A stretch of 64,000 nucleotides of DNA from Methanosarcina horonobensis HB-1 = JCM 15518 (GTDB lineage Archaea > Halobacteriota > Methanosarcinia > Methanosarcinales > Methanosarcinaceae), in NCBI RefSeq assembly GCF_000970285.1, contig NZ_CP009516.1:4009036-4073035 (forward strand), given 5' to 3'. The position numbers were made by a program, and so were the translations under genes. Positions 509-11,322 of the stretch are shown here, one piece after another (positions within the stretch are counted from its first letter, which is position 1; each line of letters begins with the position of its first letter). The notes beneath the pieces were generated by a model. That model was not told the origin of the DNA, made no database searches, and worked only from the letters and a program-made list of their open reading frames with translations.

Positions 509-1321
509 TCATGTCCCTATCTGGAAAGGATTCAGGATCTTTTTCAGGGTAGAAATTGCAGAGAGGGCTGCAAGATAACTTGTTTTAGGGTTATCAGGAG
601 AAGGAAGATTTTCCACTCTTGTGCAGAATTTCCCGAATTCTCCTTCTACATTGACTTCGTGCACGTTTCTGGAAAGGGAAGGATCAGCTATGACTTTTAC
701 CGTCGTCCGCTCAAAACCTATGCCTGCAAGGCTTATGGTCGCTGCCACGTTAACGTTTGCAGGAAAGGCTTTTACGGCTTCCGAAGCAGGTCCTTCAAAG
801 AGTAACATCTCTTTTTCAAGCTTTTCAAGCTCTATACCGTGCTCCACAACATAGGGAGCTCCCATAAGTCCTGACGGAGGCTTCCTTGTGGTCAGGGTAA
901 CAGAGGAAACTCCGGCAGCACATGCCGAATTTATCCCGTCAATTCCGACAACCGCACCAGAGGGGAAGTAAAGCCTGCAGCTATGCTGCTTTGCAAGCCC
1001 GAAAAGAGTTTCCCTCAGTTCTTTGTCTGCAAGGGCACCTACACTCAGAATCATCACATCCCGTCCTGCTTGAAGGGCCTGAGGGACAATGAACCTGACG
1101 GCGTTCTGAGAAGCACTTTCTATAACAAGGTCTACACTGCATATGAGTTCTTCGATCTTCATATATGCAGGCCTGCATGTTTTCAGGGAATTTGCAAGTT
1201 CAAGTGCTTTGCTTTCCGAAGAGTCGCAGAGGGCGTACAGCTCTGCATTAATCTCCCTGTTATCAATTGCCCTGCAAATCTGTCCACCAATGAATCCGCA
1301 ACCAATAATTCCTATTTTCAG
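509..1321 (-). CDS. nadX: L-aspartate dehydrogenase NadX, apparent CTG start
   Basis: NadX oxidises L-aspartate to iminoaspartate with NAD(P)+, the first step of quinolinate and NAD synthesis. Read from the CTG at 1321 the protein has 270 residues, the usual family length. It opens with a beta strand and the dinucleotide loop GCGFIG (residues 7-12). The later conserved block NVNVAATISLAG is present. The first in-frame ATG, at 1162, would delete the whole Rossmann half. Between the preceding in-frame TAA and that ATG there is no ATG, GTG or TTG. A GGAG sequence lies 9 bases before the CTG, so I place the start there. nadC is divergent to it. A nadA gene, which would complete the pathway, is not visible in this window. 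The family call is firm; the start is inferred. Confidence 0.88.
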   Translation of the reverse strand: MKIGIIGCGFIGGQICRAIDNREINAELYALCDSSESKALELANSLKTCRPAYMKIEELICSVDLVIESASQNAVRFIVPQALQAGRDVMILSVGALADKELRETLFGLAKQHSCRLYFPSGAVVGIDGINSACAAGVSSVTLTTRKPPSGLMGAPYVVEHGIELEKLEKEMLLFEGPASEAVKAFPANVNVAATISLAGIGFERTTVKVIADPSLSRNVHEVNVEGEFGKFCTRVENLPSPDNPKTSYLAALSAISTLKKILNPFQIGT

Positions 1322-1630
1322 TATTCCAGGCTCCTGAGAATAATTAGTAAGTTTTTAATTGCCTCAACAATTTAGCTGGTATTTTTCGATCAACTATAAT
1401 TGCTTATATATAATTTTCTTTATATGCCCGGCACAGAGAAACTCCGAGAACGGGAGTACTGTATTCCTTTCTCTATCTTTAAACCTTCTGTTCCTGCATC
1501 TTCTCTTTCGTCTCAAGAATCTTCACTTGAATTAGATCCGCTCTTTACTCTCTGTCCAGAATATCCAAATTGCATACTGTAAAGTAAAAACATGATGGAA
1601 GAAAAAACAGAAGGAAAATGCCCATATCCC

Positions 1631-1669: not shown

Positions 1670-2503
1670 ATGTTTATCAGAGAAATTGAAAGCTTCATAG
1701 AAGAAGACCTGGGGTACGACGATGTTTCCTGTACTATTGTTCCGGACAGACCTGTTGAAGCCACTGTTTTTACGAAAGAGGACTGTACGGTTGCCGGGAT
1801 AGATGAGGCAGCATCAATATATTATTACTTCGGAATTCAGGCGGAAACCGATTTTAAAGATGGAGACCGCCTCAGCAAAGGAGATGTGATTTTCAGGCTC
1901 AGGGGAGGAGCCGTATCCATTCTCAGGGCAGAGCGCATTAGCCTTAACTTCCTCGGGCACCTCAGCGGGATTGCCACCCTGACAAGAAACTGCACCGATA
2001 TTGTGAGAAAGCACTCGGAAACTACAAGGGTTGCATGTACAAGGAAGACCACGCCGGGGATAAGGAAGTTTGAGAAGCTTGCTGTTGCTGCCGGAGGAGG
2101 AGATACTCACAGATTTAACCTCTCAGATGCGGTTATGATTAAAGATAACCATGTAAAACTTATGGGAATAGAAGCCGCGATAAAAGCCGCCCGAAAGACC
2201 AGCTTTACTCGGAAAATTGAGGTTGAAGTCGAGTCTGCAGAAGATGCGGTCTTTGCTGCAGAACTGGGAGCTGATATTATAATGCTTGACAATATGCAGC
2301 CCGATGAGATTAAAAAGACTCTTTCCATACTTAAAGAAAAAGAACTCCGAGAATCAGTTCTTATGGAAGCTTCAGGAGGAATTTCCCTCGAAAACCTCGA
2401 AGACTATGCAAAAACAGGAGTAGACATAATATCCATGGGCTCACTTATCCACAAATCAAGATGGATAGATGTCAGCCTGGAAATAGTCGGCTATGAGGCC
2501 TAA
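1670..2503 (+). CDS. nadC: Nicotinate-nucleotide pyrophosphorylase NadC
   Basis: This enzyme condenses quinolinate with phosphoribosyl pyrophosphate to nicotinate mononucleotide, releasing CO2 and pyrophosphate. The 277-residue protein has the family's N-terminal domain followed by the TIM-like barrel. Signature segments are LNFLGHLSGIATLT (about residues 87-100), the basic substrate-binding stretch TRKTTPGIRKFEKLAV (about 124-139), the GGGDTHRFNL loop, and IKDNH. The ATG is preceded by AAGGT at good spacing and by a TATA box. The gene is divergent from nadX, so the two NAD genes share an upstream region of about 350 bp. Nothing looks broken. Confidence 0.95.
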   Translation: MFIREIESFIEEDLGYDDVSCTIVPDRPVEATVFTKEDCTVAGIDEAASIYYYFGIQAETDFKDGDRLSKGDVIFRLRGGAVSILRAERISLNFLGHLSGIATLTRNCTDIVRKHSETTRVACTRKTTPGIRKFEKLAVAAGGGDTHRFNLSDAVMIKDNHVKLMGIEAAIKAARKTSFTRKIEVEVESAEDAVFAAELGADIIMLDNMQPDEIKKTLSILKEKELRESVLMEASGGISLENLEDYAKTGVDIISMGSLIHKSRWIDVSLEIVGYEA

Positions 2504-3100: not shown

Positions 3101-4369
3101 TTGAAGGTGAAAGGGTTTCATAGAACTATTTTATTTACGTTTCTCATCCTGTTGACGCTTGGCAGTACAGCATCGGCAAGAACTGCTGTATATGACGGAG
3201 ACATTGAGGAAGGGGAGGTATATCAGCTTAACAATTACATAATAGAAATTACCGATATCTTTCCTGAAGCAGGTACAGCCTCATATTATGTGTATGAGAG
3301 AGACAAGAAAATAACAACAGGCCTGCTGGATGTGAACGAGAGCTTCGAGTTCGACTTTGAGGATGAGGGTAAAGTGCAGATGCGCCTGAAGTCCGTTCAT
3401 ACCGGAGGCGTATTACCCAGAGCTACAGTTGAGATTACCATGTCAAATTACAAGATAGGAGATCTTTACATTAACGAGGTCGTTGAAGGGGGGCGTTCCC
3501 AGGCAGCCTTTGCAGGAGATCCTAAACTTGTGATAACTAAAAGTGTCGATAAATCCGAAATAGAAGTGGGAGATTTAATAACCGTTACCGTAAACGCAAA
3601 AACTACCGGAAACGATGCTGCACATGATGTGCTGTTTACGGACCCGAAGCAGGAACATTTTGTCCTGAAGGAAACTACTTACGAAATTTCAACCACAATA
3701 CCAAAAATTGATTACGGACAATCAATGCCTGAAACTCTTGTTTATATTTATAAATTGAAAGCAACCGAGGCAGGAACTTTCGATCTCAGAGCTGTGACTG
3801 CTACATACAGAAACAGTGCGAGCCAGACCTACCAATCATCTTCTAACACTCCCACAGTAACTGTACTTGAAGGGAATAAACTGAGGGCGGATGTTGAGAC
3901 CACGATGGTTATGGATCTGCTATCTGTTAGAAGAAACGAAAAAGTCACCTCAACAATTATTCTGAGGAACACGGGAAGTGCTCCTGCTCAGGCTGTCCGT
4001 CTTGACATCATGGTTCCGGATGGTATGGAATATGTCAGCGGAGACGAAGGGATTGAAACCGTAGGTGGAAAACCCAGAATATACATAGAAACTCTGCAAC
4101 CCAACAATGACAAAGAGTTCACGTGCACTTTAAAAGCAAAGGATGTGGGCACTTACAGTATAAACTCAGAGCTCTCTTATGAGTACAGTAACGGGGTAGA
4201 TGCCCAGAAAGTTAAGCAAAACGGTAAATTTGCAACTTCCAACATCAATGTAAAAGAAGGAAAGTTCGACTTCATGTTGAAAAATCCGTTATACATCATA
4301 ATTCCGGTAGCCATTCTTGCTGTTATTGGAGTTCATATATACAGGCGGCACAGGCAATACAGATATTAA
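3101..4369 (+). CDS. Secreted, C-terminally anchored DUF11/CARDB-like protein
   Basis: The 422-residue protein has an N-terminal signal segment (hydrophobic residues about 10-26, ending near SASA) and a C-terminal transmembrane helix (about 393-411) followed by a short basic tail RRHRQYRY. Between them lie an N-terminal beta domain of about 120 residues and two beta-sandwich repeats, starting near residues 143 and 263. Phrases such as VDKSEIEVGDLITVTVNA and ILRNTGSAPAQAVRLDIMVP are typical of DUF11 or CARDB-like extracellular domains. The start is TTG at 3101 with GAGGT upstream. It lies about 100 bp ahead of a tubulin-like GTPase on the same strand, so co-transcription is likely. No enzymatic motif is visible. 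Role unknown; a surface or envelope function is inferred. Confidence 0.7.
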   Translation: MKVKGFHRTILFTFLILLTLGSTASARTAVYDGDIEEGEVYQLNNYIIEITDIFPEAGTASYYVYERDKKITTGLLDVNESFEFDFEDEGKVQMRLKSVHTGGVLPRATVEITMSNYKIGDLYINEVVEGGRSQAAFAGDPKLVITKSVDKSEIEVGDLITVTVNAKTTGNDAAHDVLFTDPKQEHFVLKETTYEISTTIPKIDYGQSMPETLVYIYKLKATEAGTFDLRAVTATYRNSASQTYQSSSNTPTVTVLEGNKLRADVETTMVMDLLSVRRNEKVTSTIILRNTGSAPAQAVRLDIMVPDGMEYVSGDEGIETVGGKPRIYIETLQPNNDKEFTCTLKAKDVGTYSINSELSYEYSNGVDAQKVKQNGKFATSNINVKEGKFDFMLKNPLYIIIPVAILAVIGVHIYRRHRQYRY

Positions 4370-4465
4370 AGAAAAAACTTAATAAATAATATAAAAAAGT
4401 GTGAAAATCCCGCTCAATCCGGGATAGAAAAATGGAAATTTACCTTTAAGATGGAGGAGTTTTTT

Positions 4466-5581
4466 TTGCTCAATATACTTGTAATAGGAAACGGGCAATG
4501 TGGAAACAGAATTCTGGATTCCATTAACCGGCATGCGATGGGAGGAGGAAAAAACTGCAACAGGCTTGCCAAATTCTATTCGAAGCAGAGATTTAAAAGC
4601 CATGTTGAAACCCTTGCTTTTAACACTGCTGTTAATGACCTAAAAGAGATGAAGTTTACAAAAGCAAGGGACAGAGTCCACATCCCCCACCTGCATGGAG
4701 TTGGTGCAAACAGGAATGTTGGAAAACAGGTCTTTGAAGAAAATAAAGAGATGATTATGCGGCAGGTTGAGGAAAGGGGTAATTTTGATATTGCTTTTGT
4801 ACTGACCTCAGCCTCGGGTGGTACAGGCTCTTCTTTTACTCCTCTTCTCATAAGGGAAATGAAAAATCGCTACGACTATCCTGTTTATTGTGTTGTTGTC
4901 CTTCCTTTCAGGGAAGAAGGAACTCTTTACCTTCAAAACTCAGCGTTTTCGATCAGGGATATCCGTCAGAGCGGGGTAGACGGAATTATACTTGCCGATA
5001 ACCAGTACCTGAAAAACATCGGAGGAAGTATTCAGGAAGCCTATAACGGTATAAATGACATGATTGCAGAGCGTCTTCTTTTCCTTCTTGATGCCCTTGA
5101 CAGTGAAATGATGATGGTAACGGATCTCGGTGACTTCAAGACAGTAATGAGCGGAGGTGCAGGGCTTGCAACTATCGGTTTTTTCAAGGCTGATAAAGAC
5201 ATGCCTATCAAAACGACAATACAGAACTCGCTCTCCCCTTCAGGACTTCTGTTTTCAACCAATGTTTATGAAGAAGCAAGCAGAGCAATGATAGTAATCA
5301 AAGGTGACCGCAAATACCTGAGTATAGACGAGATCTCAACTGAGATCGAAAAACTTTCCGGAGCCGTGGGACATGTCTTCAAAGGAATAGTTGTGCGCGA
5401 CGGCGAGTATCCTCAGATTCTTTCGCTCCTTACCCTGGAATCTGCTCATGAACTTGAAAAACTTTATAATGTAGCGGTTCAGGCTATTCATTACGAGAAA
5501 GCAAAAAAGCAGCGTGTTGAAGAAGGAGTCGAAATGAAAAGGACTTTTTCCCAGATTGAAGGGATGGAACCTGAATATTGA
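4466..5581 (+). CDS. Divergent FtsZ/tubulin-superfamily GTPase
   Basis: The 371-residue protein keeps the GTPase landmarks of the FtsZ/tubulin fold. The N-terminal ILVIGNGQCGNRI recalls the tubulin GQCGNQI loop. The T4 phosphate loop reads ASGGTGSSF, and NNINDM-like sequence (NGINDMIAER) follows in the right place. The T7 region reads TDLGDFKTVMSGGAG and keeps two acidic residues spaced as in FtsZ. It is not classical FtsZ1/FtsZ2: loops differ and no FtsZ C-terminal tail is present. I start at TTG 4466, preceded by GGAGGAG; the ATG at 4451 overlaps that ribosome binding site and would add five residues. The upstream neighbour is a membrane-anchored secreted protein. It could belong to CetZ or another non-canonical FtsZ-like family; I cannot decide which. 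Confidence 0.85.
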   Translation: MLNILVIGNGQCGNRILDSINRHAMGGGKNCNRLAKFYSKQRFKSHVETLAFNTAVNDLKEMKFTKARDRVHIPHLHGVGANRNVGKQVFEENKEMIMRQVEERGNFDIAFVLTSASGGTGSSFTPLLIREMKNRYDYPVYCVVVLPFREEGTLYLQNSAFSIRDIRQSGVDGIILADNQYLKNIGGSIQEAYNGINDMIAERLLFLLDALDSEMMMVTDLGDFKTVMSGGAGLATIGFFKADKDMPIKTTIQNSLSPSGLLFSTNVYEEASRAMIVIKGDRKYLSIDEISTEIEKLSGAVGHVFKGIVVRDGEYPQILSLLTLESAHELEKLYNVAVQAIHYEKAKKQRVEEGVEMKRTFSQIEGMEPEY

Positions 5582-5734: not shown

Positions 5735-6665
5735 ATGAAAACGATTTCTGTGTTAAATTTAAAAAATTATTTTTATAGGAGTACTTATCCTTGCTCTGAT
5801 CGCAAGCTCAGGGTGTACGAGCGAAGAGTCCAGTCTGATGAAAACGTGGAAGGTGCAGCCCCCGGTTGAGGCTGCCGGAGCCATCACAGGTACCGATAAT
5901 TCAACAGAGTCTGCCGAGATCACAATCACTGACGGATGTGGTAGAGAATTAACCATACCCACAAATGTCGAAAGTACTATCTGCTCGGGGGCAGGGTGCC
6001 TGCGCTATCTTGTATACCTGCAGGCACAGGACCTTATTGTTAGAGTTGACAGCATAGAGTTAGAAGAATCTGAGTTAGAAGGTCGCCCCTATGCCCTTGC
6101 AAACCCACAGCGTGTTGAGACCGGAAGGCTGACAGCTTTTGATGCAGTCCTGCTAGGGCAGCGGCCTCATATCAAATGGGACGTAAGAGAAAAAAACCTT
6201 AAAATCGTTGATTCGGTCTTCAAGTTACTTTCAATGGAAAACCTGCGCCTGTTCTATATCGATGAGATGAGCAGGGGCGAACTTCAGAAAGTAGCAATAG
6301 CACGTTCCCTTGTCCAGGAGCCAAAAGTCCTCCTTCTTGACGAGCCTACAAGCAGCCTTGACCTGAAAAACCAGGTGGAGATCCTGACCACTATCAGGCA
6401 GATAGTTCTCGAGCACAGGATTGCGGCTGTAATGACAATGCACGACCTCAACCAGGCACTCAGGTATGCAGACCGGTTCATTCTTTTGAAGGGAGGAAAA
6501 ATTCATGCCCACGGAGGAGTGGAAGTAGTTACCCCTCAGGTGATCGAAGATGTATACGGCCTTACAGTTGTCATAGGGGAAATTGCAGGTATGAGATGCG
6601 TAGTTCCCGGAAGCCCCTCATGGGATTGTACATATAACCAGCTGGAAAAAGCGGGACAAGAATAA
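5735..6665 (+). pseudogene. Deletion fusion of ABC binding protein and ABC ATPase
   Basis: The first part encodes the lipoprotein signal and N-terminus of a siderophore/cobalamin-type substrate-binding protein: hydrophobic stretch, lipobox ALIASSGC, then ITDGCGRELTIPTNVE. Near 6107-6120 the reading passes straight into the C-terminal two thirds of the partner ATPase (FDAVLLGQRPHIKWD, Walker B VLLLDEPTSSLD, H-loop MTMHDLNQ). The rest of the binding protein, the permease and the ATPase Walker A are missing. The ABC signature reads MSRGELQK instead of LSGGELQK. At the 5' end the ATG at 5735, preceded by AGAGGAAAG, is one base out of frame with the lipoprotein signal; the break lies at an A6 run near 5761. 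I therefore call it dead, although an internal ATG at 5838 opens the fused frame. Confidence 0.85.
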
Positions 6666-8772: not shown

Positions 8773-10032
8773 TTAGTATGGTTTCCAGAGATAGAGGATT
8801 ATACGTGCTCCTCCGGGGTTGATCTGCCTGTAAATTGCCTCTATCTGAGAATCCCTTAAAGCCTGAGCCTCGGAGAGGTCTTCAGTCTCAACTATGGCAT
8901 GAATAGTCTCGTTAATCTTATCTGAAAATTCAGCTTCAAGTTCCGCTCTGATCTCTGCCCTGATATAGTCTGCCAGCAGGACTTGAAGTTGAGAAAATTC
9001 TGCAGTGGATGCATTTTCAGAAGAATTTTCGGATTTGAGTGCAAATCCCGTTTCAAGCAGGTCAGAGAGGTAGACATTAAATTTCTCTTCCGTTGAGGAG
9101 GAGTGTTCTTCATCCGGGTTTTCAGAAATTCCATAAAGCAGGGTCTCAAAGGACTCATCTGCTTCCCCACCGAAGACAGGTCCCGAATAATCAGATGGGA
9201 AAAGCAGCTCAACGGCTGTCTCCGCTCCTTCAAGGGCTGCAGCATCAAGAGAAACATTAAAAGCCTGAGAAAGTGCTGTTGAAGCCTCTTCGTCAGAAGA
9301 GTTAAGGGAATCTTCAAGCAAGGAATCATTTATGCAGGCAAGAAGAGAGTCCTTAGAAGGCGTACCCTCATAGAGTGGCATGGAAAGTTTTGCACTCTGC
9401 CGGATAGCATCTGCAGACGGCTCTTCTCCAATAATAAATTCGCTTCCCAGAGGGAAAGTTTCCACAGGATACCAGTAAGCTTCAAATCGGTAAGAGAACC
9501 TTCCTGCCACCTTTTTGTCCAGATAAGCAGCTATGGTTTCGGAAGCCTGATCGGAATAGTTCTCAGCTAGTGGGTTGAAGGAGAAGGAAGAGCTGTTTCT
9601 CTGCAACTTGAGGGAAATAGCCAGATATTCGGCTGTCAGGTCAGCAAAAGTCCTGTGCTTCTGTTCCTTTTCAAAAAGGGTGTGAGCAGGACTTTCCACA
9701 ATTGAATCCTCCGGAACTGAAACATTAAGCACCGAAAGAGGTGAGATTTCATACTTAAAATCCTCAAGTTTGCAGGAAAGAAATGATTCAAGCAGATAGG
9801 TATCCAGTTCTGAAGAAGTCAAATATCCGGCTGCAGTATATTGCTCATCAGCCTGCTGAGATGGCATAAGAATAATACCGGAAAGTGAAATTAACACAAG
9901 CAAAAATAGGGCATCAAAAACTGTAGAGTAGCCAGAAGATTCTCTAACAGCGTCGATCTCTACTTTTTTACTTTTAATTTCTTGCATCTGTCCGGAGTTT
10001 TTAGAAGCTCTCAAGGATTTCACCTGTTTCAC
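8773..10032 (-). CDS. Large single-pass pilin-like protein, cluster gene 4
   Basis: This is the last of four same-strand genes that each encode one N-terminal hydrophobic helix and an extracellular domain. In this 419-residue protein a charged cytoplasmic segment of about 36 residues (ending RESSGYSTVFDA) precedes the helix LFLLVLISLSGIILM. The exterior is acidic, Ser- and Glu-rich, with many NxS/T sequons, and contains a long helical stretch near residues 360-400. No catalytic motif is visible. GTG at 10032 and GTG at 10023 are both possible starts; the second has the better-spaced AGGTG. The order of the cluster and helix-first topology suggest minor pilin-like or envelope proteins. No secretion ATPase lies next to it. 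Confidence 0.6.
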   Translation of the reverse strand: MKQVKSLRASKNSGQMQEIKSKKVEIDAVRESSGYSTVFDALFLLVLISLSGIILMPSQQADEQYTAAGYLTSSELDTYLLESFLSCKLEDFKYEISPLSVLNVSVPEDSIVESPAHTLFEKEQKHRTFADLTAEYLAISLKLQRNSSSFSFNPLAENYSDQASETIAAYLDKKVAGRFSYRFEAYWYPVETFPLGSEFIIGEEPSADAIRQSAKLSMPLYEGTPSKDSLLACINDSLLEDSLNSSDEEASTALSQAFNVSLDAAALEGAETAVELLFPSDYSGPVFGGEADESFETLLYGISENPDEEHSSSTEEKFNVYLSDLLETGFALKSENSSENASTAEFSQLQVLLADYIRAEIRAELEAEFSDKINETIHAIVETEDLSEAQALRDSQIEAIYRQINPGGARIILYLWKPY

Positions 10033-10139
10033 CTATTTACCGGTTTATTTTCCGAACCATCAGTTCCTTTCCCGAACCATATCTGATTTTCAGGATCAAT
10101 CATCCCCACTTTCGACGTTTATACCACCAGAATTCTGTT

Positions 10140-10727
10140 TTACATCCATGGAGTGTTATAGAGAATTACAGTAAGGGTTCCCGGAACCGACTCTGCTGGA
10201 CCTATCTTGACCACAACCGGCACTGAAGCCGCGACTTTCTCCTGTTTTCCCATGAGGTAACCGGGTTCTACAATCCTGGACTCTATAACCCACTGCCATC
10301 GCCCGTCATCTGTCCGGATTTCGACCAGAAACGGATAATTTCCGGAAAATGCTGCAAAAAATTTATTTCTCTCATCTTCTCCTTCATGACCTGAAAGCCT
10401 ATCAAGGGCTGATGCAGAAAGAGTGCCCGGATTTTCTGCTTTCAGGACAGGTTCTTCTGCCACGGTTGCTGCAAGAAGGGAAGCACTTTCATAATTCTCA
10501 AGGGCAAAGGAGCGGTCTTCATATCCCAGATATGTCCTCGAAAGAAGGGCCGCAAGAACCACGAAACCTATAACAGCAAGAGCAGTGGCGATAAGATCTG
10601 AATGAGGTTCAAGAACTCCTTTTTCGTCCTGCAGAATTGTATCATCAGGCTTTTTCACAGTATTTTTCACAGATGCCATCCAGTTATTGATAAACGAGAA
10701 CATACTCAAAAGCAGAAACCCCCTCAC
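10140..10727 (-). CDS. Single-pass pilin-like protein, cluster gene 3
   Basis: The protein has up to 195 residues. A cytoplasmic segment of about 45 residues is followed by the helix LIATALAVIGFVVLAALL and an extracellular domain of about 130 residues ending in SVPGTLTVILYNTPWM. The exterior contains WQWVIESRIVEPGY, suggesting a beta-rich fold. Its 5' end overlaps the 3' end of cluster gene 2, so translation is probably coupled. The start is uncertain: GTG 10727, TTG 10709 and ATG 10703 are all in frame, and the G-rich stretch after 10727 fits the TTG best. No named family was recognised. Confidence 0.6.
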   Translation of the reverse strand: MRGFLLLSMFSFINNWMASVKNTVKKPDDTILQDEKGVLEPHSDLIATALAVIGFVVLAALLSRTYLGYEDRSFALENYESASLLAATVAEEPVLKAENPGTLSASALDRLSGHEGEDERNKFFAAFSGNYPFLVEIRTDDGRWQWVIESRIVEPGYLMGKQEKVAASVPVVVKIGPAESVPGTLTVILYNTPWM

Positions 10728-11322
10728 TACCCCTTATATAAACAAATTCTTTCTTTATTGAGATGTTTTCATCTGCGCTTAAAAGAGCCTCTTTGGTTCC
10801 TGATGCCCTGAGGAAATCAATGACTTCCTGAAAATTAGCTGTAAGGGGAGATTCTTTACTGCCATCAGCTCCAAACCTTGCATATAGTTTTCCCCTGAGT
10901 TCTGACTCGTTGAAAGGCAGTACTCTGAAGGTAAAGGGTCTTACAGCATTGAAATTTCTTCCATCTGATTCAGCCTTTAAATGGACATACTCTCCTGACA
11001 CGTAAACCTCTATATTCTCCCCAAAAGGAGAGGTTAGAAAGACTTCATTTTCATCAAAACGATAAGAGATTTCCTGAGTTTCCCCTGTTTCCCCAGGAAA
11101 ATTCTCTGCTCCGGCTTTATCTACTGCGGCTTTGAAATCCCTGGAAAGGAAATCCAGCTGCTCCTGTGCCTCAAGACCCTTAAAACCGGCAGCCAGTTGA
11201 AAAAGGGCTGCAAAAAGGACTACACTGGCGAGAACCAGTGCAGCTTTCGATATCAAAAAGTCAGCCCATGCAGACTCGTCTCCTGAGAGCTCCTTTACCG
11301 TACAGGTCTTTTCCAACTTCAT
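10684..11322 (-). CDS. Single-pass pilin-like protein, cluster gene 2
   Basis: The 212-residue protein begins with a short charged segment (KELSGDESAWADF) followed by the hydrophobic stretch SKAALVLASVVLFAALFQLA. The remaining 165 residues are predicted extracellular. The GDES(A)-before-helix arrangement matches GDEAA in cluster gene 1, which supports a common origin or common processing. The gene starts five bases after the stop of cluster gene 1 and overlaps gene 3. Function is unknown; a pilus-like or surface assembly is inferred from the layout only. Confidence 0.62.
   Translation of the reverse strand: MKLEKTCTVKELSGDESAWADFLISKAALVLASVVLFAALFQLAAGFKGLEAQEQLDFLSRDFKAAVDKAGAENFPGETGETQEISYRFDENEVFLTSPFGENIEVYVSGEYVHLKAESDGRNFNAVRPFTFRVLPFNESELRGKLYARFGADGSKESPLTANFQEVIDFLRASGTKEALLSADENISIKKEFVYIRGSEGVSAFEYVLVYQ

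Follow-up and report, generated by a model that had tools for sequence, protein, structure and literature searches.

The window, a 64,000-nucleotide stretch of the 5.02 Mb genome of Methanosarcina horonobensis HB-1, carries a cetZ gene of the Methanosarcinales type that is preceded by a gene for a predicted membrane protein, here termed the partner gene, with nadC and nadX further upstream (Table 1). The initial annotation had read a tubulin/FtsZ-type GTPase from the cetZ frame, and this was borne out: the frame was open, and the Pfam Tubulin profile of the tubulin/FtsZ GTPase domain matched its product with E = 2.8e-34. The TTG was taken as the correct start codon, because the Shine-Dalgarno-like GGAGGAG lies seven bases before it and orthologues begin with MLN at the matching position. 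The GTP-binding loop and the T7 acidic residues were also found as described there. T4 has a Ser in place of the first Gly of GGGTGSG, and D220 and D223 of T7 fall on the catalytic acids of FtsZ in the alignment. The T1, T4 and T7 loops were nearly invariant across more than 120 orthologues. A chance resemblance was excluded by these loops, by the Pfam match and by the match to the best solved relative, 3ZID (E = 1.7e-134 over residues 1–369, about 59% identity), the 2013 crystal structure of CetZ from Methanosaeta (Methanothrix) thermophila.

Table 1. Genes and sequence features at the cetZ locus, in window coordinates.
Feature	Position	Strand	Basis
nadX (aspartate dehydrogenase), neighbour	509..1354	-	Homology; reported near Methanosarcinales cetZ (PMC9856176)
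nadC, neighbour	1670..2503	+	Reported near Methanosarcinales cetZ (PMC9856176)
Partner gene, 422 aa: signal peptide, three beta-sandwich (DUF11/BatD-like) domains, one C-terminal membrane helix	3101..4369	+	Profiles, model
Predicted membrane helix of partner	4286..4342	+	Prediction, model
Basic, presumably cytoplasmic C-terminal heptapeptide RHRQYRY of partner	4346..4366	+	Tail comparison across loci
Shine-Dalgarno-like GGAGGAG before the cetZ start	4453..4459	+	Read from sequence
cetZ (Methanosarcinales type), 371 aa, TTG start	4466..5581	+	Open frame; profile, structure-relative and orthologue matches
T1 loop GNGQCGNRI of CetZ, residues 8–16	4487..4513	+	Orthologue alignment
T4 tubulin signature SGGTGSS of CetZ, residues 117–123	4814..4834	+	Orthologue alignment
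T7 loop VTDLGD of CetZ, residues 218–223, two acidic residues	5117..5134	+	Orthologue alignment
CetZ C-terminal peptide FSQIEGMEPEY-COOH, residues 361–371	5546..5578	+	Conserved in orthologues; disordered in model after long helix

The AlphaFold2 model of the window CetZ (pLDDT 83), a check suggested by the initial annotation, matched 3ZID first among PDB folds, followed by 4B46 and 4B45 (Haloferax CetZ1 and CetZ2) and then FtsZ. 3ZID is a full-length orthologue with an identical GQCGNRI in T1 and the same SGGTGSS and T7, and differs at the C-terminal peptide, which is INDLEEIY instead of IEGMEPEY. The Haloferax volcanii proteins share the fold, the GQ of T1, the HGVG of T3 and a C-terminal end of the LEPLF type, but are only about 25% identical and read GGGTGSG in T4 and DSSEIINTL in T7. 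Hence the window protein is a CetZ of the Methanosarcinales type and not a separate non-canonical family: its nearest relative is a structure already named CetZ, and Brown & Duggin (2023; PMC9856176) placed the Methanosarcinales protein in CetZ with a larger tree than ours. Such a placement is the outcome that the initial annotation had named as speaking against its own reading, although the AU tests described below do not by themselves settle the deep branch. The CetZ_C profile (PF21011) gave a marginal pass for the window protein, at 22.3 bits against a cut-off of 21.6 and covering just positions 1–65 of the 180-position profile, and matched 23 of the 24 members of the Methanosarcinales-type group at E ≤ 0.01.

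The first loop, GQCGNRI, had been read as closer to eukaryotic tubulin than to FtsZ. This reading did not hold, because GQ, with Gln for the FtsZ Gly, is a general CetZ trait that was present in all 22 canonical CetZs sampled; the window protein adds only the Cys and the Asn. Similarity scores ranked CetZ above FtsZ and FtsZ above tubulin (4e-27 for CetZ2 versus E = 3.6e-6 for BtubA), and a profile search for Tubulin_C gave no match in the window CetZ. An argument for tubulin kinship from this loop was therefore rejected.

The lack of an FtsZ tail was confirmed in so far as FtsZ's own tail is absent, but the protein does end in a separate conserved peptide, FSQIEGMEPEY. All 127 complete Methanosarcinales-type CetZs ended in Tyr-COOH, most of them with [IL][ED]G[LM][ED]PxY, and those of Methanothrix and its neighbours with DLEEIY. 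Canonical CetZs mostly ended in LEPLF, IEPLF(E) or similar, so that xLEPLF matches the [LM][ED]PxY end of the Methanosarcinales-type group; an LEPLF-like end was seen at nearly all of the canonical loci L033–L062. By the [LI]xPLF-type end, a criterion for CetZ that was defined in this analysis and not taken from the literature, the window protein counts as a CetZ. In the AlphaFold2 model, residues 328–364 form one helix and residues 364–371 are disordered. The motif looks like a docking peptide that is apparently common to CetZs, and our literature search found no description of it.

The partner matched two DUF11 stretches and a BatD-like profile, and in its structure model three beta-sandwich domains stand between a signal helix and a membrane helix at the C-terminal end. 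Foldseek returned integrins and other beta-sandwich proteins at a TM of about 0.2, which we took as generic similarity. Since the protein combines a signal peptide with one C-terminal helix, it is probably a single-pass membrane protein, with the beta-sandwich domains outside the cell and the short tail in the cytoplasm.

Based on tblastn, the partner lay directly upstream of cetZ and on the same strand at 79 of 80 loci in the class Methanosarcinia, compared with 55 for nadC and 48 for nadX, counts in which contig ends explain some of the absences. At the 80th locus the contig begins inside the partner, and the edge piece carries the matching tail, so that the partner accompanied cetZ at all 80 loci. 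The partner was kept even at loci without nadC and nadX (ANME-2 and several Methanoperedens loci), and in the Methanoperedens and ANME lineages the gap to cetZ was often 6–39 bp. Outside the class, the partner adjoined cetZ at two of three loci (L200 and L202); the third (L201, genome G068) has cetZ without an adjacent partner. Searches for the partner gave only weak matches to DUF11 paralogues in five genomes lacking cetZ, and no match in seven genomes that carry canonical CetZ alone or lack the Methanosarcinales-type group. In the five searched genomes whose only CetZ is canonical, as in Haloferax volcanii CetZ1 and CetZ2, no partner homologue was found.

The pair is also lost and duplicated as a unit. 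Among 30 Methanosarcina genomes, the closest relatives compared, full-length cetZ and the partner occurred in the same 10. The probability of this co-occurrence (3e-8) was not counted as a test, as one deletion can remove adjacent genes together, which makes the co-loss weaker evidence than it appears. Five Methanosarcina loci without the gene retained decayed 3' remnants of cetZ at the syntenic place with differing break points; the pair is therefore ancestral and was lost repeatedly and recently. Five genomes had two full-length cetZ genes, and a separate partner accompanied each of them. Tandem duplications of the partner-cetZ pair were observed at four loci, and at one of these (L205, genome G014) the second cetZ is fragmentary and contains an in-frame TAG. 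A half-length second cetZ, comprising the C-terminal part with an intact tail, lies without a partner beside CRISPR-associated-looking genes (L203:4849-5364). A mobile or phage origin of cetZ was rejected, as plasmid matches were restricted to haloarchaeal CetZ at 25–30% identity and synteny at the locus extends throughout the class.

The partner tail follows the pattern [RK]xx[QE][YF][KRS][FYM]-COOH in 76 of 79 extracted reading frames, corresponding to 76 of the 77 with a readable end; of the three exceptions, one has an extra Gly, one derives from a wrongly picked frame and one is masked by N. Among about 1600 other reading frames, the motif matched further partner copies only and no unrelated frame, and the three other DUF11 proteins of the host genome are without it. 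A scan for the tail beside canonical cetZ genes gave nothing convincing. Because other stretches of the partner are more conserved, the claim made here is for a fixed motif anchored at the protein end, not for the strongest conservation.

Taken together, we lean towards the view that CetZ and the upstream membrane protein form a two-gene module, in which the tail of the latter would dock on CetZ and tether its filaments to the membrane. CetZ would probably bind GTP and polymerise head to tail, with hydrolysis in one subunit completed by T7 acids from the next. The basic partner tail would face the acidic CetZ end and could dock on CetZ, perhaps on the GLEPEY end, tethering the filaments to the membrane and linking them to the surface protein. 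CetZ may then serve cell shape or the organisation of the envelope at the cytoplasmic membrane, and not division, which would be left to FtsZ1 and FtsZ2. More tentatively, the pair could form a dedicated transmembrane linkage, in which the outer beta-sandwich protein is coupled through its seven-residue inner tail to the CetZ filament; the cytoskeleton would thereby be fixed to the S-layer side of the cell, or sense it. The closest working comparison is FtsZ with its SepF/FtsA anchor, which likewise ties a cytosolic tubulin-fold filament to the membrane through a tether and a short conserved peptide. In the proposed CetZ module, however, the role of tether would fall to a transmembrane surface protein, and the C-terminal peptide of FtsZ is absent. 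Several observations weigh against anchoring: short basic tails are common after a membrane helix, genome G068 has cetZ without the adjacent partner, and neither the co-loss nor the conservation of the tail is as telling as it might be, for the reasons given above.

An ordinary CetZ without a special partner, meeting the membrane by other means, with the upstream gene a stable neighbour that shares its promoter, is a reading that we regard as credible while giving it less weight than the module. The CetZ identity itself is solid, and nadC and nadX are also widely kept without an obvious functional link. A mere neighbour sits less well with the loss of nadC and nadX from ANME-2 and several Methanoperedens loci at which the partner stays, with duplications that copy the whole pair, and with a tail that is fixed to the last residue in a protein whose outer domains show only about 26% identity between distant species.

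Phylogeny had been proposed as a further check, and here the answer was divided. In a tree of 71 sequences the Methanosarcinales-type group formed its own clan (97.6/97), and the best tree separated this group and CetZ from FtsZ and tubulin (83.5/97), in agreement with the published tree (PMC9856176). AU tests on constrained trees, however, gave p = 0.71, 0.38, and 0.24 for three deep placements and rejected none of them, including a grouping with FtsZ or tubulin. At the 37 positions by which canonical CetZ and FtsZ could be told apart in the sampled sequences, the group was CetZ-like in 14 cases, FtsZ-like in 6 and neither in 17. Both the AU tests and the low share of CetZ-like sites count against the assignment to CetZ. 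Given the separate clan, the undecided AU tests, the 14 CetZ-like sites and the narrow CetZ_C pass, the group is therefore regarded as divergent, deep CetZ, with our own tree data alone leaving the deep branch unproven. A separate, non-CetZ branch of the tubulin superfamily, diverging close to the point where tubulins, FtsZ and CetZ arose, would fit the own clan, the permissive AU tests, the FtsZ-like T7 (DFKTVM) and the SGGTGSS of T4, as well as the tubulin-like N-terminal blocks noted in Methanosarcina CetZ-like sequences (PMC9871819, 2023). We nevertheless consider it unlikely in view of the best tree, the larger published trees (PMC9856176), and the features that the group has in common with CetZ, namely Q in T1, HG[VI]G in T3, V in T7 where FtsZ has Asn, and the C-terminal motif.

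The FtsZ signatures, T1 GxGGxGxN and the T7 Asn, are absent from the window CetZ, with Q replacing G and V replacing N. A third division FtsZ that aids constriction would account for the FtsZ-like T7 loop but is highly improbable, as the genome already encodes two further FtsZ genes, the protein scored 70.7 bits against the FtsZ equivalog cut-off of 295.2, and the many losses of cetZ within Methanosarcina indicate that division does not require it. The initial reading of a polymerising-type GTPase other than the division FtsZ was thus supported, and because of these two FtsZ genes it is likely that any filament it builds is separate from the division ring, as first suggested. FtsZl1 and FtsZl2 belong to the same FtsZ-tubulin superfamily, and membrane remodelling has been proposed for them. 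Membership in either was ruled out by loops and distribution: FtsZl1 lacks a recognisable T6-H7 and FtsZl2 is proteobacterial (Makarova & Koonin, 2010; PMC2875224), whereas all loops are present in the window CetZ, with T6-H7 and T7 conserved.

The protein and much of its gene neighbourhood are already described in the literature. Brown & Duggin (2023; PMC9856176) reported the nadC/nadA/nadX neighbourhood of Methanosarcinales cetZ and named arCOG00476 as a fourth neighbour, which may be the partner gene, in which case they had already seen it. Beyond the literature found, our data show a conserved C-terminal peptide in this CetZ group and a co-inherited upstream gene for a predicted membrane protein with a conserved tail. 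In the literature on CetZ and archaeal division we found no membrane anchor named for any CetZ, and no function for any CetZ outside the haloarchaea. If true, the proposed module would provide the first identified membrane anchor for a CetZ. A concrete CetZ binding test follows from a class-wide partner that is inherited, lost and duplicated with cetZ and carries a fixed inner tail. Methanosarcina acetivorans is genetically tractable, and the genus includes natural strains without the cetZ-partner pair that are usable for comparison.

Some further features of the neighbourhood were observed. Homology to nadX extends to about position 1354 without a stop codon, with no ATG, GTG or TTG upstream of 1162. 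Downstream of cetZ, the frame at 5838–6665 (+) starts as a BtuF-like binding protein and ends as a BtuD-like ATPase, keeping the N-terminal portion of the former and the C-terminal portion of the latter. Because the permease between the fused parts is missing, this frame was interpreted as what a deletion has left of a corrinoid/iron-type ABC transporter. A gene run on the minus strand (8773–11322) encodes proteins that each have a single membrane helix at the N-terminus; one protein matches DUF7284, and the set resembles pilin or secretion components.
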